Below, piece after piece: positions 17,950 through 35,102 of a stretch of 64,000 bases of DNA; position 1 is the stretch's first letter, and each line of letters begins with the position of its first letter. Source of the DNA: Methylobacterium sp. PvR107 (lineage in GTDB: Bacteria; Pseudomonadota; Alphaproteobacteria; Rhizobiales; Beijerinckiaceae); contig NZ_JAFIBW010000001.1 in NCBI RefSeq assembly GCF_017833295.1, positions 2,804,001-2,868,000 on the forward strand, written 5' to 3'. The notes beneath the pieces are model-generated. The model saw only the letters and a list, made by a program, of their open reading frames with translations. It was not told the DNA's origin and did no database searches. Position numbers and translations under genes: made by a program.

Positions 17950-17966
17950 TGTCCCATTCGATCAAG
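17950..17966 (+). promoter_or_regulatory. conserved 17-bp operator, copy A (AraC gene)
   Basis: TGTCCCATTCGATCAAG, oriented towards the AraC gene, whose ATG is 66 bases downstream. It is followed by CCGGGC, as in copy D, and then a possible -10 (TTATCT) about 10 bases past the element. One of five copies in the window. Confidence 0.7.
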
Positions 17967-18032
17967 CCGGGCTGGCTTATCTGATGTCAACTACGCTGCT
18001 TGCACCGACTCAGGCTTGCAACAGGGGTGGCC

Positions 18033-19277
18033 ATGTCCTCTTCTGGGATAGGAGGAGCGCCGGGAACCGCCACGCGGCCCTTGGGAGGCGGCAGTTCCGG
18101 TGCGAACGGGCAGCCGCTTCCTGTTGCCTTGGGTCGTCCGGGGGTGAAGCAGGCGATCCACGCCACCCTTGTCGAGCTCGGTGCCGATCCGGGCGAAATC
18201 CTGGCCGAGCTGAAGCTCGACCCCGGTCTCTTCGACGGCGGCAAGCGCGTCCCCTATGCAGACCTCAACCGCCTCATCACGCTTGGGGCCGACCGGACGA
18301 AGTGTCCGCATCTCGGGCTGCTCATCGGCCAGCGCGCGTCCCTGGGGTCGCTGCGACACCTCGGCGTGCTGATGCGGCACTCGGAGACCGTTGGCGACGC
18401 CCTGCGCGCGCTCGTCTCGCACGTCGGCACGCAGCACTGGGGGGCGGTGGTCGTGCTTTGCGTCGACCGCGAGGTCGCCGTCCTCAGTTATGCGCCGTAT
18501 GGTCCGGACGCCGATTGGGCGGCCGTCCATTCGGAGCGCGCGCTCGCCACGATGGCCAAAGTTCTTCGGGCGCTGCACGGAGCCGATTGGGCTCTGCAGG
18601 AGGTCCTGCTGCCGCGCTCCAAGCCCCGCGACGCCATTCCCTACGACCGCTTCTTCCAAGCGCCCGTTCGGTTTGATCAGGAAGTCGCCGCCCTGGTTTT
18701 CTCGGCCAAACTACTGGAGCAGCGTGTTGCCGGGGCAAAACCGGTTGTCTGCCGGATGGCGGAGGACCGCATTCGCCGTCTTGAGGCCGACCAAGCGTCC
18801 AATTTGACGGATGAACTTCGTCAATACCTTGGGATCCAGGTGACCCGGCAGCGCTGCAAGGCGGAGCGCGTGGCGCGCCTACGGCTCGTGGACCGCCGCA
18901 CCCTGAGTCGTCACCTGAGGGCTGAGGGCACAACCTTCAGGCAGCTGGCCAACGAGGCGAAGTTCCGGGTGGCCAAGCAGCTGCTCGCCGACACCACCAT
19001 GAGCGTGACGCAGATTTCGGAGGTCCTGGGTTTTTCCGAACTCGCCGCGTTGACACATGCTTTTCGGCGCTGGTCGGGCACGACGCCGAGCGCGTGGCGG
19101 CGCGCGAACGAGCCGGCGGACGTCGTTCAGCCCGTCGACACTCAGACCCCGCCAGGAAAGCCACAGATTTCATCCAGCATAAGCCTTCTTGAAGTGCCGC
19201 CGTCCGGCCGCCGGCCGCCTCCTGCTGACGCCTTAGCAAGGCGCTCCCCAGAACCGGTGGCCGCCGTTCGGAACTAG
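18033..19277 (+). CDS. AraC-family transcriptional regulator (arabinose-binding-type N-terminus)
   Basis: The ATG at 18033 follows AGGGGTGG and gives 414 residues. Residues about 30-225 form the ligand-binding domain of the OruR/arabinose_bd type (GVKQAIHATLVELGADPGEI; LGLLIGQRASLGSLRHLGVL). The two AraC helix-turn-helices lie at about 270-360 (TFRQLANEAKFRVAKQLLAD; SELAALTHAFRRWSGTTPSA). A low-complexity tail of about 50 residues follows. The truncated gene at 27924 is a close paralogue of its C-terminal half. A copy of the 17-bp element lies upstream, so autoregulation is plausible. Confidence 0.9.
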   Translation: MSSSGIGGAPGTATRPLGGGSSGANGQPLPVALGRPGVKQAIHATLVELGADPGEILAELKLDPGLFDGGKRVPYADLNRLITLGADRTKCPHLGLLIGQRASLGSLRHLGVLMRHSETVGDALRALVSHVGTQHWGAVVVLCVDREVAVLSYAPYGPDADWAAVHSERALATMAKVLRALHGADWALQEVLLPRSKPRDAIPYDRFFQAPVRFDQEVAALVFSAKLLEQRVAGAKPVVCRMAEDRIRRLEADQASNLTDELRQYLGIQVTRQRCKAERVARLRLVDRRTLSRHLRAEGTTFRQLANEAKFRVAKQLLADTTMSVTQISEVLGFSELAALTHAFRRWSGTTPSAWRRANEPADVVQPVDTQTPPGKPQISSSISLLEVPPSGRRPPPADALARRSPEPVAAVRN

Positions 19278-19687
19278 GACATACGTCGACCGATGGCCAA
19301 GGTTTTCACCATCAATTCTGGATTTGTACTGTTGTGTGTTGCTGCCTCGGCATACCAATCACCGGAATCTACGGCGAATAATACGGGGACAATAGGTAAT
19401 TTTTATTACAAGATCGACAAACAATACGATCAAAACAAGTGCGGTCGGGTGAGCGCGCTGCTCGCGTCCCGGCTGTCCGCGCATTACGCGTGCAAAAACA
19501 TCGCCTTGCCGCGTGGTCACGGGAAGCACTGTCGGAGCAGGACTGGTCCAGAGTTCAAGCTCTTCGATACGCTGGGAGCCTGTGAACAAAACAGAAACAG
19601 CCGAAGCGAACAAGAATTTGAGCGATGATTTGCTTGGCACCCACACGCGTCATTGCACGATGCAGATCTTCCATGAGAAAGGGCGCG
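19278..19687. other. 410-bp AT-richer gap without a supported gene
   Basis: The base composition is clearly lower in GC than in neighbouring genes. Short frames exist on both strands, but none has a ribosome-binding site or a recognisable domain. It may hold the promoter of the secreted protein at 19688. Confidence 0.35.
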
Positions 19688-20113
19688 ATGGAGACTGCGA
19701 GCATCTTGGGAGCCGCCTTGCTCTATCCAGGCCTCGCCATATTGGCTGGAATGCCGAACGCATCGGCGGCTCAGGGCGGCCTAACGGATTATCAGGGCGC
19801 CTGGGTGTTGGACGGGCGCGGCTGCGAGGATGTCTATGCCTCGGATGGAAAGACGCCAGCGTTTAAGAAGCCGGTCGACATCTTTGCACCTGCTTTCATC
19901 GTCTCCGGCAAGCGGCTGAGGACTCCGATGGCGACATGCCAGATCAAATCGGTCCGGCGGGCCGGGGACCGCCAGCGTCTTCTCCTCGACTGTACGAACG
20001 CCGTTGCCGGTAACGCGGTCACGGTCCTGATGGCGCCTGCGGGCGGGGTTATCACGCGCTACTACGACGTTCGGGATACGACAGGGGTCGGCTACCGGCG
20101 CTGCTCGCGGTGA
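19688..20113 (+). CDS. secreted protein of unknown function
   Basis: The ATG at 19688 follows AAAGGG by five bases and gives 141 residues. The N-terminus is a signal peptide (ILGAALLYPGLAILAG, cleavage near NASAAQ). The mature part (DYQGAWVLDGRGCEDVYASD; DIFAPAFIVSGKRLRTPMAT) has four cysteines and a beta-rich pattern seen in many small periplasmic proteins of Rhizobiales. I do not recognise a functional family. Confidence 0.7.
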   Translation: METASILGAALLYPGLAILAGMPNASAAQGGLTDYQGAWVLDGRGCEDVYASDGKTPAFKKPVDIFAPAFIVSGKRLRTPMATCQIKSVRRAGDRQRLLLDCTNAVAGNAVTVLMAPAGGVITRYYDVRDTTGVGYRRCSR

Positions 20114-20395
20114 GGCGCGCGAGATCAGGGGCGTCGATCCGGCAGTTCAGGCCGTCCGGGTCCGAGCAGCGCCGCAGCGATCAGTGACGCCGACGTGCGT
20201 GTCCGGTCGGCGGCAAGAGCCCCGTGGTCGCGCAGTCTCGGCCGATAGAGAACCTGCCGGTTTTGCCTCGGTGCGCCAAGCCGAAGACAACGCCCCTAGC
20301 AACGGCGATCCACCCGAGTGCGGCGGGCATTCAGCTCCGCACCGGTCCACGGCGCTTAGGCAGACGTGAGCGCGCCGAACCAACATAAGCTCACA

Positions 20396-22555
20396 CTATT
20401 CCGGCGGTCGAAATCGCGCCGAGGCGGGTCCCGCGTAGAGGCGGCCGTCAGGACCGAACGCACCGGCGAAGGCCTGACTCCCGGTCGTTTCCGCGCAGAC
20501 GAGCTCATGCTCGGAAGCCTCCGTCACCGCGCACTCCGAACTTGCGGCCAACGCCCCTGGGATGAGCCGGAAGTCGCCGCGCTCCGGTGCCGCGAAGCCC
20601 GGATTGCCGGCGCGTCCGTGGGACTCGATCCCGTGTTCGCGCTTGAGCGCGATCGGAAAACCGTTGCTGCTGACGTCGTAATCGAAGGCGCTCGCGAGCG
20701 CCGGGAGATCGCGTCCGGACGCGTCGACGGGCAGCCACCGGAAGCAATCGAAGAACGGCAGCGTTCCGGTCTCGCCGAGATAGCGGGCGAGACCCTCTCC
20801 ACCGACGACGCCGCGTCCGCAGGTGCTCGCATCGAATGTCTCGGGCCTCGGCCGGCACAGCTCCCTCTTGTAGCCGGGCACGCCGTCCTCGCAGAACAGC
20901 AGGGCGTTGTTCCAGTGCCTGAGATTGGCGGCCGGGCCGATCCCGGTCACGGGCGAACGCAGGTACCAGCTGTTGTTGAACAGGTAGATCGCCCCGCGCG
21001 CCGCGTAGCGATAGGTCCCGGGCGGGCTGTCCCGAGGCGGAAGCGCGAGCTTGACGACGCGGCCCTGGAGGCTTGCCTCGCAGATCTGATCGAGCGGATC
21101 CATCCAGGAGACCTCACCGGCCGGGTCGACGCTCTCGACCCCGACGGGCAGCCAGCGGGCGCGTGCGAAGTCGTAGCGCCGGTCGAGCTTCGGGTCGAAC
21201 GCACCATCGGCGGCCGGTTTCAAGACGGGGTGGCGTGTGCAGGGCGGCGGGAACGGTGAACGATCCGGCAAGGCGGTCGCGGGGACGTCGTCGAACCAGC
21301 CGCGATTGCCGTAGATGTAGATCGGGCCGCCCGCCATGTCGTCGAACGAGAACCACGCATGGGCATTGACGATCCGGTTGCGGTAGATCCGGACGTCCGT
21401 CGCCCAGGTCTCCAGCTCGACGGGGTTGTCGCGCACGTAGGCGAACAGGTTGTCGTAGATCCAGACATCCTGATTGTAGGGGCAGGTTTCCGGCGAGAGG
21501 TCCGAGGCCTTGCGGTCCTCGCAGGCGGCAGCCTTCAGCCGAACGCCGTTATAGGCCGAAGCGACCGTGTTGCGGCGGAAGATGATCGGCCCGCGCACGT
21601 CGGTTCCGCCGAGCAGCGCGCCGTTGAAGTGATCGTAGGCGCCGTGGTGGCCCGCGCCCCACGGGATGCTCCGCCAGAGCAGGCCCGGGCAGCCCAGCGC
21701 GCGGGCGCGGCCGTCGGCGCAGCGGAACGGACCATCACGCCTCAGGGAAGCGGCGTCGTAGCCGCTCGCGTCCTGCACCCATGTCACGTCCTCGACCACG
21801 AGCGAGTCGGCCGGGCGCTCCCGGCTGCCGCGTGCCGCGAGACCGTAGCTGCTCCCGATCACGAGGGAGCGACGCAGCGTGACGCGGCGACTGCCAATCG
21901 CCCGGACGGCCGCGAGCCAGCACCCGTCGAACGTCAGATCCTCGATCGTGACGCCGTCCCCCCGGTCGATGTCGAGGCAGGCTGCCTCCGCAAGCCGTCC
22001 GGCACGGCCGATCGGTATGGCGAGCCGCGAGCGGCGGCTGCGCGCCCGCTCGCCGGTCGACGCCGGCGTGGTCAGGGCACCGAGCAGGTCCGAAGCCTGG
22101 GGGGCCGCAAGGGCCGTGGCGAGGCCGCCGCAGGCCTGCTCGACATCGTCCTCGGGCATCGGGCAGCCGCGGACCTCGTCGACCGTGCGTCCGACCAGTC
22201 GCGTGCGCCCACCGAGGCCCTTGATCAGGATCGGCGGCGCGTCCCGCTGTCCCAATCCGGACAGCACGATCCGCCTGGCGTAGAGCGCCGCGACGGCGGG
22301 ATCGGGACTGTCGGCGAGAAGCTGGACAACGTCTCCCGGGCGCAGGTCCCGCATCGCCTCGGTCGAGAAGGCCTGCGTCTGCGGGCTGACCATCCGGCCG
22401 TCCGCGTCGTATCCCGGTCCCGACCCTGCGGGCGTGACGTAGATCGTCCGCGCCAGGGCGGCCTGAGGCCCCAGGCAAAGCAGCCCTGCCGCGAGCAGGC
22501 GCCGCACGCGGCGGCCGCCCTGGAGCACGTCGCGCCGGGCCGGCGGATGTCTCAT
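20396..22555 (-). CDS. secreted right-handed beta-helix protein
   Basis: The protein has 719 residues from the ATG at 22555, with AAGGCGG upstream and a signal peptide ending in AALARTIYVTP. The middle carries pectate-lyase-like coil repeats (VTIEDLTFDGCWLAAV; VTLRRSLVIGSSYGLAARG; IIFRRNTVASAYNGVRL; DVWIYDNLFAYVRDNPVEL; VRIYRNRIVNAHAWFSF). These parallel beta-helices usually bind or cleave polysaccharide. About ten cysteines are spread through the C-terminal half. No lyase catalytic motif is recognised, so binding and cleavage cannot be told apart. It stands alone between a gap and asdA. Confidence 0.75.
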   Translation of the reverse strand: MRHPPARRDVLQGGRRVRRLLAAGLLCLGPQAALARTIYVTPAGSGPGYDADGRMVSPQTQAFSTEAMRDLRPGDVVQLLADSPDPAVAALYARRIVLSGLGQRDAPPILIKGLGGRTRLVGRTVDEVRGCPMPEDDVEQACGGLATALAAPQASDLLGALTTPASTGERARSRRSRLAIPIGRAGRLAEAACLDIDRGDGVTIEDLTFDGCWLAAVRAIGSRRVTLRRSLVIGSSYGLAARGSRERPADSLVVEDVTWVQDASGYDAASLRRDGPFRCADGRARALGCPGLLWRSIPWGAGHHGAYDHFNGALLGGTDVRGPIIFRRNTVASAYNGVRLKAAACEDRKASDLSPETCPYNQDVWIYDNLFAYVRDNPVELETWATDVRIYRNRIVNAHAWFSFDDMAGGPIYIYGNRGWFDDVPATALPDRSPFPPPCTRHPVLKPAADGAFDPKLDRRYDFARARWLPVGVESVDPAGEVSWMDPLDQICEASLQGRVVKLALPPRDSPPGTYRYAARGAIYLFNNSWYLRSPVTGIGPAANLRHWNNALLFCEDGVPGYKRELCRPRPETFDASTCGRGVVGGEGLARYLGETGTLPFFDCFRWLPVDASGRDLPALASAFDYDVSSNGFPIALKREHGIESHGRAGNPGFAAPERGDFRLIPGALAASSECAVTEASEHELVCAETTGSQAFAGAFGPDGRLYAGPASARFRPPE

Positions 22556-22670
22556 GGCGGCGTCCGCCTTCACCGAAAGCCATCGTCGGCGCCCCGACGC
22601 TCGGGGCGGCCCGGAGAAGCGATCGACCGGCCCGGGTCCGGCGCGCGGACCCGGTAGCGGCGTCGGACAA

Positions 22671-24320
22671 TCACTCGGCCGGGACCTGCTCGGCCGCCTG
22701 CACGTTCGCCTTGGCGGCGCGCGTGGCAGCCTCGTAGGCATCCCGATACCCGCGCGCGACGGCACGCACGCCGCGTCCGATATCGGCGTAGGCCTCGTCG
22801 GGCAGGTTGGCGAGGGAGACCCGCAGGGACCAGTCGGGCGCTTCGAACCCGCCGCCGTTGAGCAGCACGATACCGTGGACCTCCGCCAGCCGGAAGGCGA
22901 GGTCGAGCGGATGGACGTTGCGCTTCAGGTAGGCCACGGCCTCCTCGCCGATGTTCTTGCGCGCCCAGAACTCGAAATCGATCAGCCCGTAATAGGCATC
23001 GTAATTCGGGTTGGGCGTGATTTGGAGGCCGAGCCCCTCGATCATCGACCAGGCGCGCCGGTTGACGATCTCCATGCAGGCATCCTGATAGGCCTTGTTG
23101 TCGTCCATCAGTTCGGCGAGCGAGAACAGGCTCATCATCACCTGCTGCGGCAGGGAGAGGCCGGCGGTGTGGTTGAGCGCGATGTCGCGACTGTCGGCCA
23201 CGATGCGGTCGATGAAGTTGAGCTTGCGCGGCTCCAGGGTCAGCGGCCCGTAGCGCCTGTCGAGATCGGCGGTCACGTCGGGCGGCAGCTTCGCGATGGC
23301 CTTGTCGAAGATATTGTCCTCATGGATCGCAATCGCGCCGAGCCGCCAGCCGGTGCAGCCGAAATATTTCGAGAACGAGTAGACACCGATGGTGTTGTGC
23401 GGGAGCTCCGCCATCAGCGACCGGAAGTCGTGCACGAACGTGCCGTAGACGTCGTCGGTCAGGATCATCAGATCGGGCCGCTTGTCCCTGACCAACCGGG
23501 TGATCTTGGCGATCGTCTCCGGGCTCAGCGCCATCCCGGTCGGGTTGCCGGGATTGACGACGAAGAACGCCTTGACCTTCGGATCGAGCAGCTTGTCGAT
23601 CTCGGCATCCGTGTACTGGAATTTGTTCTCCTGCGGCGCCTTGATGTGAACCACGTCGAGGGCATAGTCCTCGAGATGCGTCATCTCGAGATACGGCGTG
23701 AAGATCGGCGTGCCGAGAGCGATCGTATCGCCCGGCATCAGGAGCCGGTTGGCCTTGAGGGACTTGAACAGGTAGCACATCGCCGCCGTTCCGCCCTCGA
23801 CCGCGTAGAGATCGAACCGGCCGGGTGGCTTGCGCGACCCGCACATCGCCCACATCAGGTATTCGTGCACGATACGCTCGTTGTGGACGAGCATACGATC
23901 CGGGACGGGATAATTGTCACCGACGATCGAATCGACGAGTTCGTGCACGAAGGCGTCCGGCTCGAAGGCGAACGTCTTGGTCGCGTAGGGAACGAGGGCT
24001 GCCAGGAAGTCGGCGCCGGGCTGATCGGTACGCGACTGCAGCCAGGCCGCGAGCCTCTCCGCGCTTCCGGTCGCCTGCGGCATGCCGCCGAGCCCGGCCG
24101 GGTGAGTCATCACGCGCCGGCTCTCGCTCATTGCGAATTGGCCGAGGAGGAAGAAGGCGTCTCGCGGCGTCGTCGCGACCCAGTTCGGATTGCCCCGCCC
24201 CGCATTGAGGAAGGCCGATTGTGTCCGGCGCGACGTCGACTTAGCCAGCTTGATCAGTTCGTCCTTGATCTCGAATGGGCTAAGCGACTCGAAATCTCGT
24301 AGATCGAACGATTCTGCCAT
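22671..24320 (-). CDS. asdA: bifunctional aspartate aminotransferase / aspartate 4-decarboxylase
   Basis: AsdA decarboxylates L-aspartate to L-alanine and CO2 with PLP. The 549-residue length is right for the family, much longer than ordinary aminotransferases. Fold-type I landmarks are present: YAVEGGTAAM near 172-181, NPGNPTG (256-262), TDDVYGTF (288-295) and the PLP lysine K318 in SFSKYFGCTGWRLG. GGGGAG precedes the ATG at 24320. It lies 26 bases after aspT on the same strand, the known aspT-asdA arrangement. Confidence 0.93.
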   Translation of the reverse strand: MAESFDLRDFESLSPFEIKDELIKLAKSTSRRTQSAFLNAGRGNPNWVATTPRDAFFLLGQFAMSESRRVMTHPAGLGGMPQATGSAERLAAWLQSRTDQPGADFLAALVPYATKTFAFEPDAFVHELVDSIVGDNYPVPDRMLVHNERIVHEYLMWAMCGSRKPPGRFDLYAVEGGTAAMCYLFKSLKANRLLMPGDTIALGTPIFTPYLEMTHLEDYALDVVHIKAPQENKFQYTDAEIDKLLDPKVKAFFVVNPGNPTGMALSPETIAKITRLVRDKRPDLMILTDDVYGTFVHDFRSLMAELPHNTIGVYSFSKYFGCTGWRLGAIAIHEDNIFDKAIAKLPPDVTADLDRRYGPLTLEPRKLNFIDRIVADSRDIALNHTAGLSLPQQVMMSLFSLAELMDDNKAYQDACMEIVNRRAWSMIEGLGLQITPNPNYDAYYGLIDFEFWARKNIGEEAVAYLKRNVHPLDLAFRLAEVHGIVLLNGGGFEAPDWSLRVSLANLPDEAYADIGRGVRAVARGYRDAYEAATRAAKANVQAAEQVPAE

Positions 24321-24346
24321 GACAATACTCCCCGTCGCGGGTTGTC

Positions 24347-26023
24347 TCAGGAAAAGGCGAGCACGATCACCATCCCGTAGATGGTGAGCACAGTGTTGCC
24401 GATGGCGTAGGGCATGCCGTAGCCCAGGGCCGGGATCTTGCTCTTGGCGGCTTCCTGGACCATGCCGAGGGCCGCCGTGGTGGTCCGCACGCCCGCGCAG
24501 GCGCCGAACAGGATCGCCGGGTCGAACTTGAAGATGTACCGGCCGATATAGACCGACAGGACCATCGGGATGGCGGTCGCCAGGGCACCCCAGAGAAGGA
24601 GGCTCAGGCCCACGGCCTGAACGCCCGCCACGAAGCCCGGACCGGCGCTGATGCCGACGACGGCGATGAAGATGTTGAGGCCCAGCGTATTGAGCAGCCA
24701 GAGGGCCGGTCCGGGGATACGCCCGAAGACCGGGCGGATGGTCCGCAGCCAGCCGAGCACCAGACCGGCCAGCAGGGCGCCGCCGGAGGTCGACAGGCTG
24801 ATCGGGATGCCGCCGAGCTTGTAGCTCAGGGCGCCGACGAGGCCGCCGAGGACGATGCCGGCGGCCAGGAAGGCGATATCGGTCGTCTCGACCGTCCGGT
24901 CCGGGTAACCGAGATGCTTGATCGCCGCTTCGACGTGCCGCCGGCCTCCGGCGAGCGTCAGGATGTCCCCGCGCAGGATCTCGGTCCGCGGCAGCACGGG
25001 GATCTCGACCATGTTGCGCATGATCTTGCGCAGATAGACGCCGCGTGCCCACTCATGGCCCGCAAGCGCCTCCAGGGTCATGCCGGCAACGGCTCGGTGC
25101 GTGACCAGGACGTCGACAACTTCTGCCGGAACATCGAGGAGTTCCCGGTCCTGAACCTCCTCGAGCATGGGGTTGAGGCTATCGACGAGGCGCTCGCGAC
25201 GGCCGGAGACGGCCACGACGTCGTCCGGCCGCAGCATGGTCTCGCCATCGGCCTCGATGATCTGATCACCGCGTCGCACGCGCTCGACGAAGACGCGCAT
25301 CCCCGGCCAGATATCCCGCACCGGCCGGCCGACGATGCTGTCGTCGTCCGGCACCCGGTACGCCCGCAGCTCGATGTGCCGGATGGCCGAGATGAGGCCA
25401 CCCTCGCTCACCTGGCCGCCCATCTTCTGTTCGTAGTCCTTGCAGGCCTTCTCAAGATCGACGCCGATCAGTTTCGGCCCGAGCTGCGCCAGGATGATCG
25501 CCGACCCGATCGTGCCAAAGATGTAGGTGACCGCATACCCGATCGGAATCTGATCGAGATAGGTCTTGGCTTGGTCGGCCGGCATGTCGAGCCGCGCGAT
25601 CTGGTCGGATGCGACGCCGATCGAGGCCGAGATGGTCTGCGAACCGGCGTACAACCCCGCCGCGTAGCCGAGATCGAGGCCGGCGAGCTTCGCGCACAGG
25701 ACCGGTGACAGCAGGCAGAGGACGAGGACGACGAGGGAGAAGCCGATCTGCCTCGGCCCCTCTTTGGTCAGGCCGCTCACGAATTGCGGCCCGACGCCAT
25801 ATCCGACCGCGAAGATGAACAGGATGAAGAAGGTCGATTTGACGTTGGGTGAAATGGCGATGCCGAGTTGACCGATGGCAACCGCGGCGAGAAGGGTCGC
25901 CGTGACATTGCCCAGGCTGAAGCCCCCGACTTTCCGGGGACCGACCGCAAACCCGATCGCCAGAGACAGAAATATCGCCAACTCGGGATAGGTTTGAAAG
26001 GTCCTGACGAGCCAATCGGCCAT
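24347..26023 (-). CDS. aspT: aspartate:alanine antiporter
   Basis: AspT exchanges external aspartate for internal alanine. With AsdA it consumes a proton inside the cell and generates proton motive force. From the ATG at 26023 the protein has 558 residues: about five helices, a hydrophilic centre with two TrkA_C-like domains (IELRAYRVPDDDSIVGRPVR; ERVRRGDQIIEADGETMLRP), then about six helices. The AspT/YidE/YbjL duplication appears twice (AAGLYAGSQTISASIGVASD; LFGACAGVRTTTAALGMVQE). It is first in the operon, with a 17-bp operator copy 161 bases upstream. Confidence 0.93.
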   Translation of the reverse strand: MADWLVRTFQTYPELAIFLSLAIGFAVGPRKVGGFSLGNVTATLLAAVAIGQLGIAISPNVKSTFFILFIFAVGYGVGPQFVSGLTKEGPRQIGFSLVVLVLCLLSPVLCAKLAGLDLGYAAGLYAGSQTISASIGVASDQIARLDMPADQAKTYLDQIPIGYAVTYIFGTIGSAIILAQLGPKLIGVDLEKACKDYEQKMGGQVSEGGLISAIRHIELRAYRVPDDDSIVGRPVRDIWPGMRVFVERVRRGDQIIEADGETMLRPDDVVAVSGRRERLVDSLNPMLEEVQDRELLDVPAEVVDVLVTHRAVAGMTLEALAGHEWARGVYLRKIMRNMVEIPVLPRTEILRGDILTLAGGRRHVEAAIKHLGYPDRTVETTDIAFLAAGIVLGGLVGALSYKLGGIPISLSTSGGALLAGLVLGWLRTIRPVFGRIPGPALWLLNTLGLNIFIAVVGISAGPGFVAGVQAVGLSLLLWGALATAIPMVLSVYIGRYIFKFDPAILFGACAGVRTTTAALGMVQEAAKSKIPALGYGMPYAIGNTVLTIYGMVIVLAFS

Positions 26024-26422
26024 GGGAGGCGTCCCTATCTGGCCGCTCGCCCTCGCTTCAGCGGCACCGGGCGCGCGGATGACAGCTGCCAATCTTACCG
26101 CGACAGCCAACACGCTGCGTCGCGGCGCGAACGCTTGGGCGAAGCGCTGAACATTCGGATCTTTAGCGAAACGGATACATTTCGCTTGATCGCATGGGAC
26201 AAATCTCTACTCGAAAGGTCTAATTTTCGTTGGCCGACATTCTGCTATGTTGGGCGGCCGGAAAGCGGTTATGTTCGCGACGGCCAATGAGACGTGGCGC
26301 AGCGCTCGACCGGACAGGTCCCCCGAAACGGGGCGTGCATCCGCAGGTCCGATGAGCGCCTTGAGACCGTAACCCGGCCGATCCGACCCCTGACGGACCT
26401 CGCATCGGCCGGGTTGCCCTCG
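26024..26422. other. divergent intergenic region between aspT and the DUF4344 gene
   Basis: This is about 400 bases, AT-richer in the middle (26150-26280). It contains operator copy B and no supported gene. Confidence 0.45.
26185..26201 (-). promoter_or_regulatory. conserved 17-bp operator, copy B (aspT-asdA)
   Basis: Read on the minus strand it is TGTCCCATGCGATCAAG, pointing at aspT. It differs from copy A at one position only. Confidence 0.65.
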
Positions 26423-27349
26423 ATGGACATGGCACACGCCCCCCAGGCGATCCCGACATCCGAATTCAGCAGTCGGGGCCGGAACGGCAACAGGCCCGGG
26501 CGCGACCGGGTCGGGGTGATCCGCGGGGTCTTGCTCATGGCCGCCACCCTCCTGTCGGTGGCGGCCGCCCATGCCCTGCCTGTGCCGCACGGCCGCGATC
26601 GTGTCGTCGTGGCTTACGTGCCGCCAAGCGACCCCGCGCATGGCGAGATCTACCGGGCTCTGCGGCGGCGGCAGGTGCTGGAGCGGCTCGGCGCGGTCGT
26701 TCGCCTCGTGCGGCTCCCCCGTCGCCTGACCCTCCGGCTGACAGGGTGCGCGGGCGAGGCGAACGCTTGGTACGATCCTGACAGCCGCGCCGTCACGATG
26801 TGCTACGAACTGGTCGCGGGCATCGTCGCGCGCGCGCCGCACGAGGCCTCGTCGGCCGGCGTCACCCCGGAGCAGGCGATCCGCGGGCCGATCGCCCAGA
26901 TCCTGGTGCACGAGACCGGACATGCCCTGTTCCACCTGTTGCGCGTCCCGATCTTCGGACGCGAGGAGGATGCGGCCGACCAACTCGCCGCCCTGCTCCT
27001 GCTCCACCTCGCCCCCGCGCAAGCCCGGGATCTCGTCGGCGGCAGCGGGTCCTTCTTCGCGATGCTCGGGCGGCAGGAAGCGGTCGACACAAGCCGTTTC
27101 GCCGATGTGCACGGCCTGTCGTGGCAGAGATTCTACAGTCTCGCCTGCCTTGCCTACGGCTCCGATCCGCGGCGCTACGCCGACATCGTCGCGAAGGGCT
27201 ATCTACCGGCCGATCGCGCCACGACCTGCGGCGATGAGTACAAACAGGTCGCGTACGCGTTCAGGCGGCTGATCGGGCCGCACCTGCGCGTGCGCCCGCA
27301 TCGCGGCGAACGCCTGCGGCGCGCGTGGCAGGCGCGCCAGCCGCGATAG
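26423..27349 (+). CDS. DUF4344 metallopeptidase-like secreted protein
   Basis: The protein has a hydrophobic export signal (VIRGVLLMAATLLSVAAAHA). If translation starts at the GTG at 26516, this is a perfect N-terminal signal peptide; the ATG at 26423 adds 31 residues in front. The zinc-peptidase motif HETGH lies in QILVHETGHALFHLL, with a downstream acidic motif (GREEDAADQLAALLLL) that may give the third ligand, as in gluzincin-like families. This is the DUF4344 pattern. Activity is not established for the family. It is divergent from aspT. Confidence 0.75.
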   Translation: MDMAHAPQAIPTSEFSSRGRNGNRPGRDRVGVIRGVLLMAATLLSVAAAHALPVPHGRDRVVVAYVPPSDPAHGEIYRALRRRQVLERLGAVVRLVRLPRRLTLRLTGCAGEANAWYDPDSRAVTMCYELVAGIVARAPHEASSAGVTPEQAIRGPIAQILVHETGHALFHLLRVPIFGREEDAADQLAALLLLHLAPAQARDLVGGSGSFFAMLGRQEAVDTSRFADVHGLSWQRFYSLACLAYGSDPRRYADIVAKGYLPADRATTCGDEYKQVAYAFRRLIGPHLRVRPHRGERLRRAWQARQPR

Positions 27350-27543
27350 AGCAAAGACCAATACGGGGCCGGCGACCGCCGTGCCCAGGTCGACGGAATC
27401 CGTGATGCTGGCGATGGTCTCGTCATCGTCCCCCGTCGGGCCGGCAATAAAGGTCACGTCGTCCGCGCTGACGCCGCCGCGATCGACGGACACCCGGATT
27501 GCGGTCTTGAAGACGCCTGGCGTCCGTCCGGTCGGCCCTCGTC

Positions 27544-27909
27544 TCAGGGTCTGATCACCGGGAGCTGCCGGATATCCTCGCGCGTGGCGCTGACGGTCAG
27601 ATCATTGTCGCGCTGATGCAGCCGTGGGACCGGGATGCCGATCTCCCCGCCCCCGAGCCATCGCCGGCGGGCCACGACGGCAATCAGCGTATGGCCGTCC
27701 TGCGAGACCCGGACATCCCGCACACGCCCGACGGCGAGCCTGTGATCGGCATGGAGCCATCGTCCCCGGAGTGTCGGGATCAGCGAGGCCGCGGCCATCT
27801 GCATGCGCGAATCCGCTTCGACCGAGACCAGCGAGCGGGTCTCCTGCGCGTGCGCCGCGGTGACGAGCACGGCGAGGGTGCAGGCCGCAATGCGAGCGGG
27901 GTGTCGCAT
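27544..27909 (-). CDS. secreted PRC-barrel-like protein
   Basis: The protein has 121 residues, with a signal peptide (MRHPARIAACTLAVLVTAAH, cleavage after AHA). The mature beta-rich domain (VGRVRDVRVSQDGHTLIAVV; ATREDIRQLPVI) resembles the periplasmic PRC-barrel proteins common in Methylobacterium. It stops 14 bases before the divergent-looking but same-strand AraC remnant ends. No partner is evident. Confidence 0.6.
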   Translation of the reverse strand: MRHPARIAACTLAVLVTAAHAQETRSLVSVEADSRMQMAAASLIPTLRGRWLHADHRLAVGRVRDVRVSQDGHTLIAVVARRRWLGGGEIGIPVPRLHQRDNDLTVSATREDIRQLPVIRP

Positions 27910-27923
27910 CCGTTGTCCCTCCC

Positions 27924-28508
27924 CTAACCCGAGCGAGGCTTTTCGTTGTCTGCGGGGCCGTTCACCTCCGCGCGCTTCGCCTTCCGCCAGGCACTCGGCG
28001 CCATCCCAGACCAGCGCCGAAAGGCATGCGTGAAGGCGGCAAGCTCGGAGAAATTGAGGACCACCGCGATTTGCGTCAGGTTCAAATGCGTGTCGGCCAG
28101 GAGCTGCTTGGCCACCGCGAACTGGGCCTCGTTGGCGAGCTGGCGGAAGGTTGTACCCTCTGCCTTCAGGCGACGGCTCAGGGTGCGGCGGTTGACCAGC
28201 CGCAGGCGGGCGATCCGCTCCGCCTTGCAGCGCTGCTTGATCACCGTGGCGCGGAGATAGTGGCCGAGGTCATCGGTCAGCTTGGAATGGGGAGCCCCCT
28301 CGATCGGGCCGATCCCGTCTTCCACCCGTCGGCGAACGGCCGGGTCCGCGCCCGCAATCGTCTGCTGCAGGAGCGCCGTCGGGAAGACCCAGTCGGCCCT
28401 GTCCCGATCGAACCGGGCGGGTACGTGGAAGCGCTCGGCCAAGGCCGCCTCCGTCAAGCAGAAGCCGCTGCGCGACGGGGCGGACAGGGGCATCATCGCG
28501 AACTCCAA
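27924..28508 (-). pseudogene. 5'-truncated AraC-family regulator
   Basis: About 194 codons encode the end of the ligand-binding domain and both helix-turn-helices (TFRQLANEAQFAVAKQLLAD; SELAAFTHAFRRWSGMAPSA). It is nearly identical in pattern to the last half of the AraC protein at 18033, but the first 200 or so residues are missing. In frame, a TAG occurs a few codons before the TTG at 28508. The 17-bp operator lies only 29 bases upstream, so a short DNA-binding-only protein could still be made and could compete for the operator. Confidence 0.65.
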
Positions 28509-28808
28509 CGCCAGCTAATCCGACCCGTCGTTTCTTGCTTGATCGAACAGGACACCGGAACAGCACCGATCTTGGCGAGCGCCGGCCCGATCTTCATCGA
28601 TGCGGAGCGAGAGATTTCTCGCGACGATACTATCCTTACCCCTATGAGGATTGGCGGGATGCATCAGGAGCCGCTGAACAGGAAGAGTTCACGCGTCGTC
28701 GAGGCCGTGCCCTCGGCCCATCCGGCTCGGATTGCGCACCCGGACGACACCGCATTCACCCAAGACCGCGAGAGGTGAAACGCGGAGGACGGCGCCAGCG
28801 GCCTGCGC
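28509..28808. other. 300-bp gap holding operator copy C
   Basis: No missing 5' part of the AraC remnant could be found in any minus-strand frame here. Apart from the operator at 28538-28554 I see nothing. Confidence 0.4.
28538..28554 (-). promoter_or_regulatory. conserved 17-bp operator, copy C (truncated AraC)
   Basis: Read on the minus strand it is TGTCCTGTTCGATCAAG, pointing at the truncated AraC gene 29 bases away. It survives although the gene body is deleted. Confidence 0.65.
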
Positions 28809-29657
28809 TCAGTACAGCTCCGGCACGAAGCGCCGGTCGCGCAGCGTGTCGTCGTATGCGTGCTTCTTGCAGCGCTTGGGCAGGGTCACCGGCTCGGGCT
28901 TGAGCTTCCTGTAGGGGATCAGATGCAGCAGGTGCGCGATGCAATTCAGCCGCGCCCTGCGCTTGTCGTCGGAGCGCACCACATACCACGGGAGATCGTC
29001 GGAATCGGTTGCCGCGAGCATCGCGTCGCGAGCGCGGGAATAATCATACCAGCGCCGATAAGATTCCAGGTCCATCGGGCTCAGCTTCCACTGCCGCAGC
29101 GGATCGCTGATGCGGGCCTCGAAGCGGAGCTTCTGTTCCTGGCGGCCGACCTCCAGCCAAAACTTGATGAGCTGAATCCCGCTCCCAGTGATGAACTGCT
29201 CGATCTGCGGACAGAGGGTCAGGAAGCGACGCTGCTCGGCCTCGCTCGTGAAGCCCATGACGGTCTCGACGCCCGCGCGATTGTACCAGCTGCGGTCGAA
29301 GATCACGATCTCGCCCGCAGCCGGGAAGTGCGCGATGTAGCGCTGCAGGAAGAGCTGGCTCTTCTCGCGGTCGGACGGCGCCGGCAGAGCGACGACTCGG
29401 AACACGCGCGGGCTGACCCGCTCGGTGATCGCCTTGATGGTGCCGCCCTTGCCGGCCGCGTCGCGGCCCTCGAACACCACGATGATCCGCGCGCCGGTGG
29501 CCTTCACCCAGGCCTGGAGGTGACAGAGCTGCACCTGGAGCTTTCGCAGCGCGCGCTCATAGGCTTTGCGCTTGAGCCGGCTGTGCTCGAGGATCGGCTC
29601 GGCGCCGGCGGACCTCTCGGCGAGCAGCACCTGATCGGTCTCGTCCATCTGGCCCAC
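28809..29657 (-). CDS. ppk2: polyphosphate kinase 2
   Basis: PPK2 transfers phosphate between polyphosphate and nucleotides, usually favouring nucleotide synthesis. The 282-residue length fits the single-domain class. Walker A is GRDAAGKGG near 63-71, Walker B is FDRSWYNRAG near 119-128, and the lid region is rich in Arg/Lys (ITERVSPRVFRVVALPAPSD). It begins six bases after the RND pump stop on the same strand, so it is probably the third gene of the efflux operon. Confidence 0.93.
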   Translation of the reverse strand: MGQMDETDQVLLAERSAGAEPILEHSRLKRKAYERALRKLQVQLCHLQAWVKATGARIIVVFEGRDAAGKGGTIKAITERVSPRVFRVVALPAPSDREKSQLFLQRYIAHFPAAGEIVIFDRSWYNRAGVETVMGFTSEAEQRRFLTLCPQIEQFITGSGIQLIKFWLEVGRQEQKLRFEARISDPLRQWKLSPMDLESYRRWYDYSRARDAMLAATDSDDLPWYVVRSDDKRRARLNCIAHLLHLIPYRKLKPEPVTLPKRCKKHAYDDTLRDRRFVPELY

Positions 29658-29663
29658 CTTCCG

Positions 29664-32600
29664 CTACTCGGCCGGCAGATGCTCCGGCGTGCCGGCGGGC
29701 ACCTTGGGCGGCGCTGCCGGATGATCCGTGTCCTTCCCGCGGCCCAGAAGCCGCCACGCCCGCTCGCGCAGGCCCTGGAACACGACGTAGAGCGGCGGGA
29801 TCACGAAGATGCCGAGGAACGATGCGGCGATCATGCCGCCGAACACGGGCGTTCCGACATCGCGCCGGGCGAGTTGCGAGGCGCCCGTGGCGATCACGAG
29901 CGGGAGGAGCCCGAGGATGAAGGCGAAGGAGGTCATCATCACCGGGCGGAAGCGGAGCCGCGCGCCTTCGGTCGCGGCCTCGCGCAGCGGGACGCCCTTG
30001 TCCCGCTGCTCCTTGGCGAACTCGACGATGAGGATGCCGTTCTTGGCGGCCAGGCCGATCAGCACGACCATGCCGATCTGTGCGTAGAGATCGAGGGTCA
30101 GATTGCCCCAGACCATCGCCGCGTAGGCGCCGACGATGCCGACGGTCACGGAGAGCAGCACGGGCACCGGGATGGTCCAGCTCTCGTACAGGCCGACCAG
30201 GAACAGGAAGGCGAACAGAACCGCGAAGGCGAGGATGATCGCGGTCTTGCCCTCCGCCCGCTTCTCCTGGAAGGCGGTGTCGGTCCATTCCCCGCCGAAG
30301 CCCGCGGGCAGCGTGCGCGCGGCGACGGCCTCCATGGCGGCGAGCGCCTGGCCCGAGGAGACGCCCGGCGCGGGGCCGCCCTGCACCGTCACGGCGCGGA
30401 GGTTGTTGTACCGGATCAGCGCGGGCGGCCCGACGACGATGCGGGCCTCCGCGAGGCTGCGCAAGGGCACCATCCCGCCGTCCTTGTTGCGCACGTTGAT
30501 GCGGTAGATGTCGTCGACCTTCTGGCGGTCCGTCGCCTCGGCCTGGACCTGGACCTGCCATGCGCGGCCGAACAGGTTGATGTCGTTGATGTAGTAGCCG
30601 CCGAGCGAGGCCTGCAGCGCCTGGAACACGGCGTCGAGCGACACCCCGAGGATCTGGACCTTGTTGCGGTCGATGTCGAGGTAGACCGAGGGGTTCGTCG
30701 CCGAGAACGTGCTGAAGACGCGATTGAGCTTCGGCTCCTGGTTCGCCGCGACGAGGAGCCCGCGCAAGACCTGTGCGAGCTCCTTCGGATCGCCGCCGCG
30801 CAGGTCCTCCAGGACATAGGCGAAGCCGCCGCCCGTGCCGAGACCGATGATCGGCGGCGGCGCGATCGGCACGACCGTGCCGCCGGGGATCTCGCGGAAG
30901 CGCTGGCCGAGCCGCGCGATCAACGCCGCCGCGCCGTCGTCCGCGCCTTTCCGCTCCTCGAAGGGCTTGAGCGTCACCACCTGGAAGGCGGCGTTGCCCT
31001 GCGAGTAATTGTCGATGAAGTTGAGGCCGACCACCGTGGTCGTGTCCGCGACCGCGTGCTCCTCGCGCAGGATCGCCTCGGCTTTGGCTGCGACCTCCGA
31101 GGTCCGGTCGACGGACGCCCCCTCGGGCAGTTGCACGACCACGAAGAACGCGCCCTGGTCGTCCTCCGGCAGGAAGCCCGTGGGCGTGATCTTGGCGAGT
31201 TCGACCGTGCCCCAGGCCGCCGCGAGCGACAGCACGACGCCGATGATCGACAGGCGGACGATGCGGGCGACCGCCACGCCATAGCCGTCGCGCACCCCGT
31301 CGATCGCGCGCATGACGAAGCCCATGATCCCGCGGCGCGGGCCGTGGTGCGGGCGCAGCAGCACCCCGCAGAGCGCGGGCGAGAGTGTCAGCGCGTTGAT
31401 GGCCGAGAGAAACATCGAGACCGCGACCGCCACGGCGAACTGGCGGAACAGCTCCCCCGAGATCCCCGGCACGAAGGCCACCGGCACGAAGACCGACAGC
31501 AGGACCAGGGTGATCGCGATGATCGGGGCCGTGATCTCGGCCATGGCCCGTTTGGTGGCCTCGCGCGGGGAGAGGTCGGGATGCTCCTCCATGACCCGCT
31601 CGACGTTCTCGACGACCACGATGGCGTCGTCGACCACGATGCCGATGGCGAGCACCATGGCGAGCAGCGAGACGGAGTTCGCCGAATACCCCACCGCCTT
31701 CAGGGCGATGAAGGTGCCGATCAGGCTGACGGGCACGGCCAGCGTCGGGATGAGCGTCGCGCGAAGGCTGCCGAGAAACAGGAACACCACCACCACCACG
31801 AGCACGAACGCCTCGATCAGGGTCTTCTGCACCTCGTGGACGGTCTCGGTGATGAAGGCCGTCGGGTCGTAGGTGACCTTCCACTCCAGCCCCTCCGGGA
31901 AGGAGGCGGCGAGCGTCGCGACGCGGGCCTTGACCTCCTTGAGCGTCGCGATCGCGTTGGCGCCCGGCGATTGGTAGATCGCCACGACGGTCGCCGGGCT
32001 GCCGTTGAGCCGGGTCTCACGGTCGAGGCTCGCCGCACCCAGTTCGATCCGGGCGACGTCGCCGAGGCGGAGCAGGGAGCCGTCCGGGTTCGTGCGCAGG
32101 ACGATGTTCTGGAACTGCTCGGGCGAGGTGAGCCGTCCCTGGGTCTGGATGCTGAGCTGAAGCTGCTGCGCGTTGGAGATCGGCCGGGCACCGATCCGCC
32201 CCACGGGCGCCTGGACGTTCTGCGCCTTGATCGCGTCGATCACGTCGCTCGTGGTGAGGTTGAGCCCGGTCAGCTGGTCGGTCCGGACCCAGGCCCGCAT
32301 CGCGTAATCCTGCGGCCCCCACAAGGTCGCGTCGCCGACGCCGGGCGTGCTCTTGATGCGGTCGAGCAGGTTGATGGTGACGTAGTTCGAGATGAAGAGC
32401 GGGTCCTGGACGCCCTTGGGCGAGTAGACCGCGAGCACGCCGAGCAGGGCGGACGACTTCTTCTTGACCGTGATCCCCTGCTTGCGAACGTCCTCGGGCA
32501 GCTTGGCCAGGGCGATCTGGACCCGGTTGTTGACGTTGACGGCGTTGATGTCCGGATCGGTCCCGAGCTCGAACGACCCGGTGAGCGTGTAGCTGCCGTC

Positions 32601-32855
32601 GTTGCCGCTGACGCTCTTCATGTAGATCATCTTGTCGACGCCCACGACCTGCGACTCGATGGGCTGGGCGACCGTGGATTCCACCACCGCGGCGGCGGCG
32701 CCGGGGTAGGTCGTCGTCACCGAGACCTGCGGCGGCACGATGTCGGGGTATTGCGCGACCGGGATGGTGAACAGCGCCAGGGCACCGGCGATCGACGTGA
32801 CGATCGCGATGACGATCGCCAGGCGCGGTCGGTCGACGAAGATCGCGGACAGCAT
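29664..32855 (-). CDS. RND efflux pump inner-membrane subunit (HAE1 family)
   Basis: The pump exports hydrophobic or amphiphilic compounds using the proton gradient. From the ATG at 32855 the protein has 1063 residues, a normal HAE1 length, with 12 membrane helices in two repeated halves and two large periplasmic loops. The start ([20 protein letters not shown]) and the first loop ([20 protein letters not shown]) are classic. Helix 4 has the proton-relay aspartates ([18 protein letters not shown]). It starts four bases after the adaptor gene ends. No TolC-type channel follows; PPK2 does. Confidence 0.95.
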
Positions 32856-32859
32856 GGCC

Positions 32860-33978
32860 TCAGATCCCGCTTGCCGACTGGGCGATCGGGTTCGCCCGGA
32901 CGGCGATCCCGGGCCGCACCCGCTGCAGGCCATCGACGATGACCAGTTCGCCGCCCGACAGGCCCTCGTCGACGATGGCATCCGGTCCGGTGCCGCTGGA
33001 GCCCAGCTTGACCCGCCGGATCACGGCCCGCCCGTCCTCGACGACGAAGACGTAGACGCCGCCCTGGTCGGCGATGAGGGCAGCCTGGGGCACCATCACC
33101 TTCTCCACCGGCGCCCCGGTCTGCAGCGCGACCTTGACGAGCTGGCCGTCCCGCAGGGTGCCGGCCGGGTTCGGCATGCTGGCGCGCACCAGCACCGTGT
33201 CGGTGGTGCGGTCGACGCTGATGTTCACGAAGTTGACCCGGCCGGTCTGGTCGTACGTCGAGCCATCGGAGAACTGGATCCGGACGGCGATCTTGCTCCG
33301 GTCCGGCTGGACACCGCTCTGCTGCACCCGGAGGAATTCGCGCTGGCTGACCGGGAAGGCGACGTACATGGGATTTTGGCTCACGATGGAGGTGAGCACC
33401 CCGCTATCCGGTCCGACCACGTTGCCCTTCGTGACGCTGGTGCGTCCGATCCGGCCGGCGATCGGGGAGAGGATCTTCGTGTAGCCGAGGTTGATCTGCG
33501 CCGTCTTCAGGCTCGCCTCGTCGCCCATCACGGCGCCTCGGGATTGTTCGAGGGCGGCGCGCGCCTGGTCACGCGCGACCACGGTGCCGGAATTGCGGTC
33601 GAGGAGATCCTGCGCGCGCTGAAGCTGGATCGCCGCGAGCGTCTCGGCTGCGCGGGTCCGCTCCAGCGCCCCCTCCGCTTGACGGACGGCGGCCTCGAAG
33701 AGGTCGGGCTCGATCCGGTAGAGCGGCGCTCCGTCCGCGACCAGCTCGCCCTCCTTGAACAGGACAGCGTCGAGGTACCCCGTGACCCGCGCCCGCACCT
33801 CGACGCGGCTCACGGCCTCCACCCGGCCGACGAAGTCGAGCGCCGTATCGATGGCTTTCTTCTGCGCGGCGACGGTGCCGACGGGCAGCGCCGCCGCGGG
33901 CGCCGTCTCCGCGGCGGCGGAATGCGATCCTGCGGTCAGCAGAGCGAGGATGAAGAGACAACGCGACCAGCGGAACAT
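32860..33978 (-). CDS. RND efflux periplasmic adaptor (MFP)
   Basis: The adaptor connects the RND pump to an outer-membrane channel. It has 372 residues: a signal peptide ([20 protein letters not shown]), a lipoyl half-domain ([20 protein letters not shown]), an alpha-hairpin (about 95-150), the second lipoyl half ([20 protein letters not shown]) and a beta-barrel/membrane-proximal region. It lacks a lipobox Cys. It is first in the operon with the pump and ppk2, and operator copy D lies 56 bases upstream. Confidence 0.93.
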
Positions 33979-34034
33979 GACCGTCCCTCGCCCGGAGAAT
34001 CCCCCTCGTATCCTTGCAGATTACGTCTGCCCGG

Positions 34035-34051
34035 CTTGATCGAACGGGACA
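34035..34051 (-). promoter_or_regulatory. conserved 17-bp operator, copy D (RND-ppk2 operon)
   Basis: Read on the minus strand it is TGTCCCGTTCGATCAAG, followed by CCGGGC as in copy A and by TAATCT 11 bases past the element, a plausible -10. It points into the adaptor gene. Confidence 0.7.
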
Positions 34052-34074
34052 GGCGGCCGTCCCGCCCGGAGCGA

Positions 34075-34641
34075 TCAGGCCCCCGGTGGCACCTCGGAAC
34101 CCGAGAGCATCAGCGCCCTCAGCTTGTCGCGGCCGAGCACGCGGCCGAGTTCGCGCCACGTGAAGTAGGGGACGAGCGCGATGGCCATGATCACCGTCAT
34201 GACCGCGAGGCCGCGCACGCCGCCGCCGCCGATCACCGGCAGGGCGTCGGCGAGGCTATGGCCCTTCCACAGATTGATCGCCGATTCTTCCGCCGCGTAG
34301 GCACAGACCAGCAGCAGGGCAAAGCCGGCGGACCGCAGCGCGACGGGCAGGATCAACGGCCGACCCTCGAAGTGCGGACGGGCGTCGAGCCCCTCCGCCA
34401 CCAGCATCACCTTGGCGAGCATCCAGGCGTTGACGAAGGCGAGGCCGTAGAACTGGGTGCTCAGGCCGTGCCGCGACAGCACCACCGATTCGTGCAGCAC
34501 CAGCACGCCGAATACGACCCACAGATAGATGAAGATCGTGGCGATGCGTCTCGCCTCTTGGGACACGCGCCGTCCGATGCGTCGCCAGCGATCCGTCGCC
34601 CCAGTCTTGCGGACGATCGCCGGATCAGCGGGCGTGCCCAT
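34075..34641 (-). CDS. four-helix inner-membrane protein, unknown function
   Basis: The protein has 188 residues with a basic cytoplasmic N-terminus (about 35 residues). It has four predicted membrane helices: IATIFIYLWVVFGVLVLHES, GLAFVNAWMLAKVMLVAEGL, VALRSAGFALLLVCAYAAEE and GLAVMTVIMAIALVPYFTW. I do not recognise the family. It is upstream of the efflux operon on the same strand, but operator D sits in the 97-bp gap, so the operon probably has its own promoter. Confidence 0.65.
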   Translation of the reverse strand: MGTPADPAIVRKTGATDRWRRIGRRVSQEARRIATIFIYLWVVFGVLVLHESVVLSRHGLSTQFYGLAFVNAWMLAKVMLVAEGLDARPHFEGRPLILPVALRSAGFALLLVCAYAAEESAINLWKGHSLADALPVIGGGGVRGLAVMTVIMAIALVPYFTWRELGRVLGRDKLRALMLSGSEVPPGA

Positions 34642-35102
34642 CCGCTCCTCTCCTGCCCGACCGTGATGGGTCGTCCGATCTCGAACGCCGTGAGCGGCGA
34701 CGCATGATCATCGGCAGCCGCCCGTCCCCTACGCACGCGCAGCAGGGCAGCAGCTCGGCCTTGTCGAGCGACAATACGCAACGGTCATTCCGATCATAGG
34801 CCAAAACAATCGGCCCAGGAATGCACTTCTGCCTCGTCTATAAAATTTAATCTGAAGCAATCCAGGCCGATCGAATCTACCGGCACGCGTCTCGGACAGG
34901 AATCGGCCGTCAGTCCTGCTTCCGATTCGGCCGGGCGGCCTCGGCCCGGAACCATGGCGGGTGTCCCTTTCGATCAAGCGTACCGATCCGGCCTAGATTA
35001 GAAGTCGAGCCAATCTACTCGAATGGTGGAATGTTCATCTCTCCGCTTTGGCCCGCGACAAGGCTGGGCCGGCCGTTCCATCAACAAGGAGGAGCCGATC
35101 TC
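34642..35102. other. 460-bp divergent intergenic region with operator copy E
   Basis: It is AT-richer around 34780-34860 and contains the operator at 34963. No gene is supported. Confidence 0.45.
34963..34979 (+). promoter_or_regulatory. conserved 17-bp operator, copy E (Gly-rich secreted protein)
   Basis: TGTCCCTTTCGATCAAG, pointing at the gene at 35103, 123 bases downstream. Confidence 0.65.

Follow-up and report, generated by a model that had tools for sequence, protein, structure and literature searches.

Putative regulatory elements of a 64-kb window in Methylobacterium sp. PvR107

We analyzed a stretch of 64,000 nucleotides from Methylobacterium sp. PvR107 (NZ_JAFIBW010000001.1, positions 2804001-2868000 of the single contig of 6,358,934 bases that was scanned as the genome; hereafter the window), in which five copies of a 17-bp DNA element stand in front of genes for AraC-type regulators, an amino acid exchanger, an efflux operon and a secreted protein. 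A pattern scan of both strands with TGTCCYNTNCGATCAAG returned exactly five perfect matches (17950-17966 on the plus strand; 26185-26201, 28538-28554 and 34035-34051 on the minus strand; 34962-34978 on the plus strand), and the extended 18-mer form of the element reads TGTCCynTnCGATCAAGC.

Site A (17950..17967, plus strand), an exact match with a matrix score of 32.3, lies upstream of a full-length AraC gene (18033..19277, plus strand) whose product joins a PF12625 sensor-like domain to an HTH_18 helix-turn-helix (HTH) domain, and from this position of the site autoregulation is putative. Site B (26184..26201, minus strand) precedes aspT (24347..26113, minus strand; PF06826, 263.9 bits), a gene of the aspartate-alanine exchanger family that probably starts at an internal ATG near 26029, and, as second gene, asdA (22671..24320, minus strand), which encodes a presumed aspartate decarboxylase of aminotransferase fold (PF00155), 96% identical to a 548-aa paralogue in the fetched stretch L032. 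Site C (28537..28554, minus strand) is upstream of a short AraC gene (27924..28508, minus strand) that a Pfam scan and comparison with a paralogue at 273 kb reduce to its HTH part. Site D (34034..34051, minus strand) faces an operon of three genes: a membrane fusion protein (MFP; 32860..33978, minus strand; PF16576 and PF13437), an RND efflux pump (open reading frame (ORF) 29664..32981, minus strand; PF00873, 1043.8 bits) and the polyphosphate kinase PPK2 (28809..29657, minus strand; PF03976, 318.5 bits). Because the RND ORF overlaps that of the MFP, the true start of the pump gene lies further in. Site E (34962..34979, plus strand) is upstream of a gene for a Gly-rich small secreted protein (35103..35543, plus strand), which matches no Pfam family and has a signal-peptide-like start as read from the sequence.

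A preliminary description of this DNA had reported five sites with 14 of 17 invariant positions, each pointing at the next gene, and had held that chance could not explain them. All five were found, with the invariance as claimed, and each stands in front of a gene start and points at it; the positions given for A to D stand, and E starts at 34962, one base before the 34963 first reported. Because the 17-bp pattern had been derived from the window copies themselves, we used for an independent test of the window a matrix of 79 sites, all from other genomes. This matrix ranks sites A-E at the top, with scores of 28.8-32.3 and the next positions at 16.9 and 7.6, and the best score in 60 first-order Markov simulations of the window was 18.4. 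The five sites are not a product of chance.

The element lies over the predicted -35 position of a promoter

For the analysis of the -10 region, 135 sites were collapsed to 114 with dissimilar downstream sequence; the downstream bases had not been used in picking sites. The hexamer TAnnnT starts at offset 18 after the 18-mer in 12/114 sites and at offset 19 in 20/114, against an expectation of 0.88 per offset, and the best -10-like hexamer falls at one of these two offsets in 70/114. Within the window, TAAAGA, TTAGCT, AAGGAT (in TGC-AAGGAT) and TTAGAA lie 18 bp downstream of sites B, C, D and E, respectively, and site A carries only a weak -10-like hexamer at the expected spacing. The sequence TWATCT, put forward earlier as the -10 of sites A and D, is real; it is not the common -10, since the recurrent hexamer sits at 18-19 bp, and we rejected it as a general -10 because TAnnnT is rare near its offset.

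With the first base of the -10 taken as -12, the element spans about -48 to -31, where a -35 hexamer would be, and its conserved blocks TGTCC and GATCAAG start ten bases apart, or one helical turn. From work on MarA and AraC, a subunit with two HTH motifs contacts two blocks one helical turn apart. A site over -35 at a preferred distance to the -10, as found here, is the geometry of class II AraC-activated promoters.

The preferred spacing would also be expected if the element were the promoter of an alternative sigma factor, a reading that we consider very improbable. Downstream stands a hexamer of the housekeeping type, TAnnnT; a bipartite element of 17 bp with its far block centered near -46 is, to our knowledge, unlike known -35 elements; and among the 24 families (six without a Pfam name) present in at least four genomes of the fetched site clusters, no sigma gene was recognized, whereas AraC was, as the only recognized transcription-factor family. 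It is less improbable, yet still unlikely, that an AraC protein binds the element but represses by covering -35 until released by a signal: the position of the element would suit a repressor as well, which weighs against activation. On the other side, and as weak arguments, little room would be left for a TTGACA-like -35 with the element in its place, and only 32/114 sites have the full TAnnnT at the expected spacing, as at activator-dependent promoters. AraC regulators of the PF12625 type are mostly activators.

Sites cluster in three regions of the genome, two of which share a paralogous block

At one mismatch or fewer, the element occurs at 14 places in the genome, 12 of them in three clusters, one being that of the window and the others lying at 245.7-279.3 kb and 1270.0-1293.0 kb. 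The clusters, delimited from the sites themselves, together take up about 1.2% of the chromosome. Outside them, single places are found at 3685044 and 5924060. With up to two mismatches allowed, the whole genome holds 37 matches vs 6 for the reversed pattern. A block paralogous to the 22.7-34 kb part of the window is located around 266-279 kb (identities of 96% for AspT, 96% for AsdA, 98% for RND and 90% for PPK2) and contains copies of the site as well, which have partly diverged. At 1286-1293 kb, a perfect site precedes an Orn/Lys/Arg decarboxylase gene (PF01276, 232 bits), which is followed by a diverged AspT (53%); by its Pfam match, the gene behind site 1292199 is of this family and not an aspartate decarboxylase. 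The regulon had first been described as likely local; with three clusters in this genome and occurrence throughout the genus, the five sites are no set unique to the window.

Transposase genes are present in the clusters (PF13546; others by look), as would be expected if the element were a dispersed mobile repeat, or a transposase end, carried with the islands. We give this explanation almost no weight. The promoter geometry contradicts it, as the copies stand at a fixed distance from the -10-like hexamer, and in the 114 sites the sequence around the 18-mer shows little conservation outside the -10 region. Other species also keep the site upstream of their close orthologues of these operons. 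Because of the fixed distance and these conserved promoters, the element is not a dispersed repeat.

One transposase-like family, which we take to be IS21-like, has members at either end of the 242-282 kb cluster and close to the cluster at 1266 kb (L031 119-1651, L032 18575-19999 and L033 1097-2410), and the site-bearing islands may be mobile. Similar-looking small secreted proteins (85-88 aa where called) follow three sites of this genome (L031 4148 and 14405; L033 4034, read by eye); the one that was scanned had no Pfam match.

Close orthologues of the predicted target operons carry the site in other species

We searched 72 genomes for AspT and MFP and 119 for Pta. The stretches fetched for site analysis had been chosen for holding sites, AraC or Pta, genes were called by a crude codon-composition script, and the matrix was trained partly on loci later counted. 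MFPs of at least 76% identity were encoded by 14 genes in 13 genomes, and the site lies upstream of all 14, compared with 0/9 of the distant MFPs (38-46%). Similarly, all six AspT genes of at least 79% identity, from five genomes, have the site upstream, and a 51% AspT outside the genus has none. Pta of at least 78% identity is present in 14/119 genomes, with a site 135-264 bases before the match in 13/13 examined (427 to 4000 bases of upstream DNA each; the count excludes another Pta match of G026, which is partial). The sites of G006, G021 and G026 (MFP), of G006 and G029 (AspT) and of G021, G068 and G070 (Pta) were outside the training of the matrix.

Sites also recur in front of genes for AraC itself (7 genomes), small secreted proteins of a family here called fam6 (5) and lactate dehydrogenase (LDH; 3), and neighbors in the fetched clusters include acetate kinase, DUF3141, enoyl-ACP reductase, an ATP-synthase epsilon-like protein and universal stress proteins. 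Aspartate decarboxylation, efflux and polyphosphate kinase, named earlier as what the regulator links, thus belong to the predicted target set without making up the whole of it, as Pta-AckA, LDH, an Orn/Lys/Arg decarboxylase and small secreted proteins are also included.

Outside the genus, 8/189 other genomes of the family have one exact match each of a narrower pattern, and the reversed control had 0. Five of these matches are inside a called gene, one is at a gene start and two are between genes; perhaps two or three of the eight are real. Sites were also seen beside an FGE-sulfatase-type gene in two Methylobacterium genomes (L123 7843, PF03781; L130 3503, same sequence cluster) and beside a gene resembling this type in another genus of the family (L269 1517).

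Three further small proteins are encoded near the sites of the window. A fam6 secreted protein (35635..36048, plus strand) with a weak PLA2-like resemblance comes after the Gly-rich gene, and in the Pfam scan the representative of its family was below the cut-off. Behind the short AraC gene lies a PRC-barrel-like protein (27544..27909, minus strand), so named from its family representative in the same sequence cluster, which matches PF05239. The third (fam19; 19625..20113, plus strand) belongs to a family found in 5 fetched genomes and has no Pfam match.

The site co-occurs with a clade of PF12625-type AraC regulators

The protein encoded at 18033 exceeds the curated Pfam cut-offs for both of its domains (PF12625, 127.8 vs 27.6 bits; HTH_18, 65.9 vs 33.6 bits) and is, judged by its sequence, the best candidate binder within the window. 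The genome has five PF12625 AraC genes, four inside the site clusters and one, at 1257.9 kb, lying 12 kb outside a cluster; a sixth relative is the short protein of the window, which is without PF12625. Given these five genes and the short form, other candidate binders stand beside the 18033 protein.

A census covered 70 relatives of the same genus, Methylobacterium in the broad sense with Methylorubrum included, and counted AraC at E 1e-60 or better, in most genomes among 15 scored candidates. Exact sites whose position 8 is T are present in 16/24 AraC-positive vs 1/46 AraC-negative genomes (Fisher p 4e-9), and any exact match of a looser pattern in 17/24 of the AraC-positive ones. AraC is present in 14/14 genomes with a close Pta, 13/13 with a close MFP and 7/7 genomes of the genus with AspT. 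Among 79 AraC loci collected from the best 80 of 194 relatives, with flanks of up to 10 kb, at least one site was found at 31/37 loci of Methylobacterium/Methylorubrum and 2/4 of Microvirga; the loci of other taxa had none (0/38 over 691 kb), and the reversed matrix gave none either. At 12/41 loci, the 450 bases before the AraC match include a site; among these are the loci of Microvirga zambiensis and of a Microvirga metagenome-assembled genome (MAG), both outside the matrix training. Because only these 12 have a site directly upstream, autoregulation would concern a minority. The proposal that an AraC protein controls these promoters is supported by the -10 spacing, by the conserved promoters and by AraC being the sole recognized recurrent regulator family, all of them features of the sequence. 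To the extent that sequence can show, it also withstands the two conditions named beforehand as refuting it, a dispersed repeat with many copies outside promoters and a copy spectrum tied to another regulator.

Compared with its 273-kb paralogue, the short AraC of the window retains the first 23 or so residues as well as the DNA-binding part and lacks PF12625, in frame. HTH-only AraC frames were also seen behind a site in M. oxalidis (L228 9893-10387) and Microvirga zambiensis (L249 9392-9814) and, as a less clear case, in the Microvirga MAG (L258 1690-2415). It looks as if the sensor domain was lost repeatedly, with promoter and DNA-binding part kept; these genes may be decaying copies or functional switches, and either would fit their sequences.

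Many AraC genes contain a motif-like stretch with few mismatches that codes for PVRFDQ (L107 3142, L126 8755, L185 1245). It is probably a coding coincidence and possibly an internal site, and such stretches were left within the site counts, including the 114-site -10 analysis and the AraC-locus counts.

A model for an acid and energy-stress regulon

We infer that the element is the binding site of the PF12625/HTH_18 AraC clade, used for class II activation of an acid/energy-stress regulon in Methylobacterium/Methylorubrum, and hold this reading with good though not full confidence. An AraC monomer would place its two HTH motifs on TGTCC and GATCAAG, on the same face of the DNA, and, bound over the -35 position, would recruit RNA polymerase as a class II activator, sometimes at its own gene too. 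Predicted targets are AspT-AsdA, the Orn/Lys/Arg decarboxylase with its AspT-like exchanger, RND with PPK2, Pta-AckA with neighbors, LDH and small secreted proteins. The signal may be acid, or loss of proton-motive force or oxygen, and the response would consist of proton-consuming decarboxylation, substrate-level ATP and polyphosphate turnover. Acid and energy stress are suggested because decarboxylation with electrogenic exchange, RND, PPK2, Pta-AckA and LDH occur together; according to an excerpt of PMC9508256, AspT is an electrogenic aspartate/alanine exchanger in Tetragenococcus.

Besides the position over -35, several observations weigh against this model. The looser pattern has an exact match in 9/46 AraC-negative genomes of the genus, and the co-occurrence test ignores phylogeny and shared islands. 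No site was found in the flanks of 6/37 AraC loci of Methylobacterium/Methylorubrum (one of them on a 4.7-kb contig) and of two of the four from Microvirga, and 29/41 AraC genes have none directly upstream. The same is true of AspT genes of 53-55% identity (0/3); in G000, G019 and G035, a gene of a decarboxylase family (Pfam-checked in G000) precedes the 53-55% AspT, with the site in front of it. Under the crude gene calling, a gene start on the same strand lies downstream of only 59 of 83 scored sites, and for 24 sites one was called on the other side, on the other strand. Finally, acid or oxygen as the signal is read from gene content only.

Relation to FNR and FixK control

A CRP/FNR-type protein such as FixK or FNR could also be considered as the binder, since GATCAA resembles a half-site, the element is centered near -41 and distant Pta loci have FNR-like boxes within 4 kb. 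We judge this about as improbable as a sigma factor, if not slightly more so. The left block TGTCC differs from the expected TTGAT arm, which is absent from the window sites, so that TTGAT-N4-ATCAA is not found there and the element as an FNR/FixK box was rejected; moreover, the element is asymmetric and has a single orientation relative to the -10. Only 2/13 site-bearing Pta promoters have an FNR-like box within the upstream DNA available, and it is separate from the site. One of the Pta promoters, in G061 (L120 6714-6843), carries two perfect boxes whose starts are 20 bases apart, about 90-110 bases upstream of the AraC-type site.

We examined 11 of 18 distant Pta matches from the same genus (56-67% identity) for boxes of the form TTGAT-N4-ATCAA with at most one mismatch. 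An AraC-type site is found within 4 kb upstream in 0/11 and a box in 9/11, and box density is higher there (12 in 44 kb) than in site-bearing loci (12 in 674 kb) or other AraC loci (16 in 572 kb). Within 1.5 kb, a box is present in 2/11, no more than at the close Pta promoters; most boxes lie 1.6-3.3 kb upstream, and each may serve Pta or another gene. FNR-like boxes were also found at 1/3 Pta loci outside the genus and somewhere at 4/9 distant MFP loci.

An excerpt of PMC2908626 describes low-oxygen regulons of FNR/FixK, with universal stress proteins predicted in alphaproteobacterial FNR regulons, and states that in the Rhizobiales group holding Methylobacterium the FNR regulon is reduced or missing and the FixK regulon well conserved. 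Those regulons resemble the one proposed here in including universal stress proteins, but have a palindromic site and a regulator of another family, whereas the close Pta operons here carry the AraC-type element. Tentatively, the AraC circuit may have replaced, or may parallel, FNR/FixK control of an anaerobic-energy program in part of Methylobacterium, where the sensor-less AraCs would antagonize the full-length proteins or serve as abundance-controlled switches; we lowered our estimate for this idea, which we now rate as possible rather than probable, because only 2/11 distant Pta loci have a box within 1.5 kb. It would be a possible case of two regulator families over equivalent operons in sister lineages.

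Comparison with known systems

Taken together, these results describe for Methylobacterium a putative control network that spans the genus and uses a precise promoter code, and whose target genes probably serve survival of acid, anoxia or energy collapse in plant- and water-associated methylotrophs. They tie, by sequence, a little-studied AraC class to a defined DNA site and offer a physiological setting for small secreted proteins whose function is unknown. Among the literature matches listed, mostly from outside subscription journals and present as partial texts, we recognized no published account of the motif, the regulon or the gene set, and the regulon is apparently unnamed so far.

The profile of an 18-sequence alignment of the AraC family has its best solved relative, over nearly its whole length, in VirS of mycobacteria (8rcx; positions 12-357 of 376, E 3.4e-31), likewise an AraC protein of the PF12625 type. 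VirS is acid-responsive; it differs in targets and host, and the comparison here is of protein sequence, the DNA site aside. Second-best is 5chh (E 1.3e-30), titled as an AraC family transcriptional regulator, which we take to be CuxR of Sinorhizobium. CuxR differs from the present clade as a c-di-GMP-responsive regulator of exopolysaccharide. The solved GadX chain is a fragment of 120 residues and matches only the HTH part of the profile.

At the level of gene sets, the closest likeness is to the acid fitness island of Escherichia coli, with GadX/GadW and gadE-mdtEF, which also brings together AraC regulators, an amino acid decarboxylase system and an RND operon. The E. coli island includes decarboxylase and exchanger. 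In the window, decarboxylase/exchanger, RND and AraC genes share one common predicted control site. According to an excerpt of PMC3708157, E. coli mdtEF is also induced without oxygen, and this anaerobic induction depends on ArcA, deletion of gadX having little effect. No match to HdeA/HdeD was found among 50 scanned proteins, a part of all proteins. The systems differ in their decarboxylases, which here would act, by family, on aspartate and Orn/Lys/Arg, in their exchanger, here of the AspT family, and in their regulators, here of the PF12625 type; the set here further includes PPK2, Pta-AckA and LDH. We thus see the likeness to GadX/GadW as one of analogy, with no descent implied, and the regulon as a known type of system with an unusual target set.

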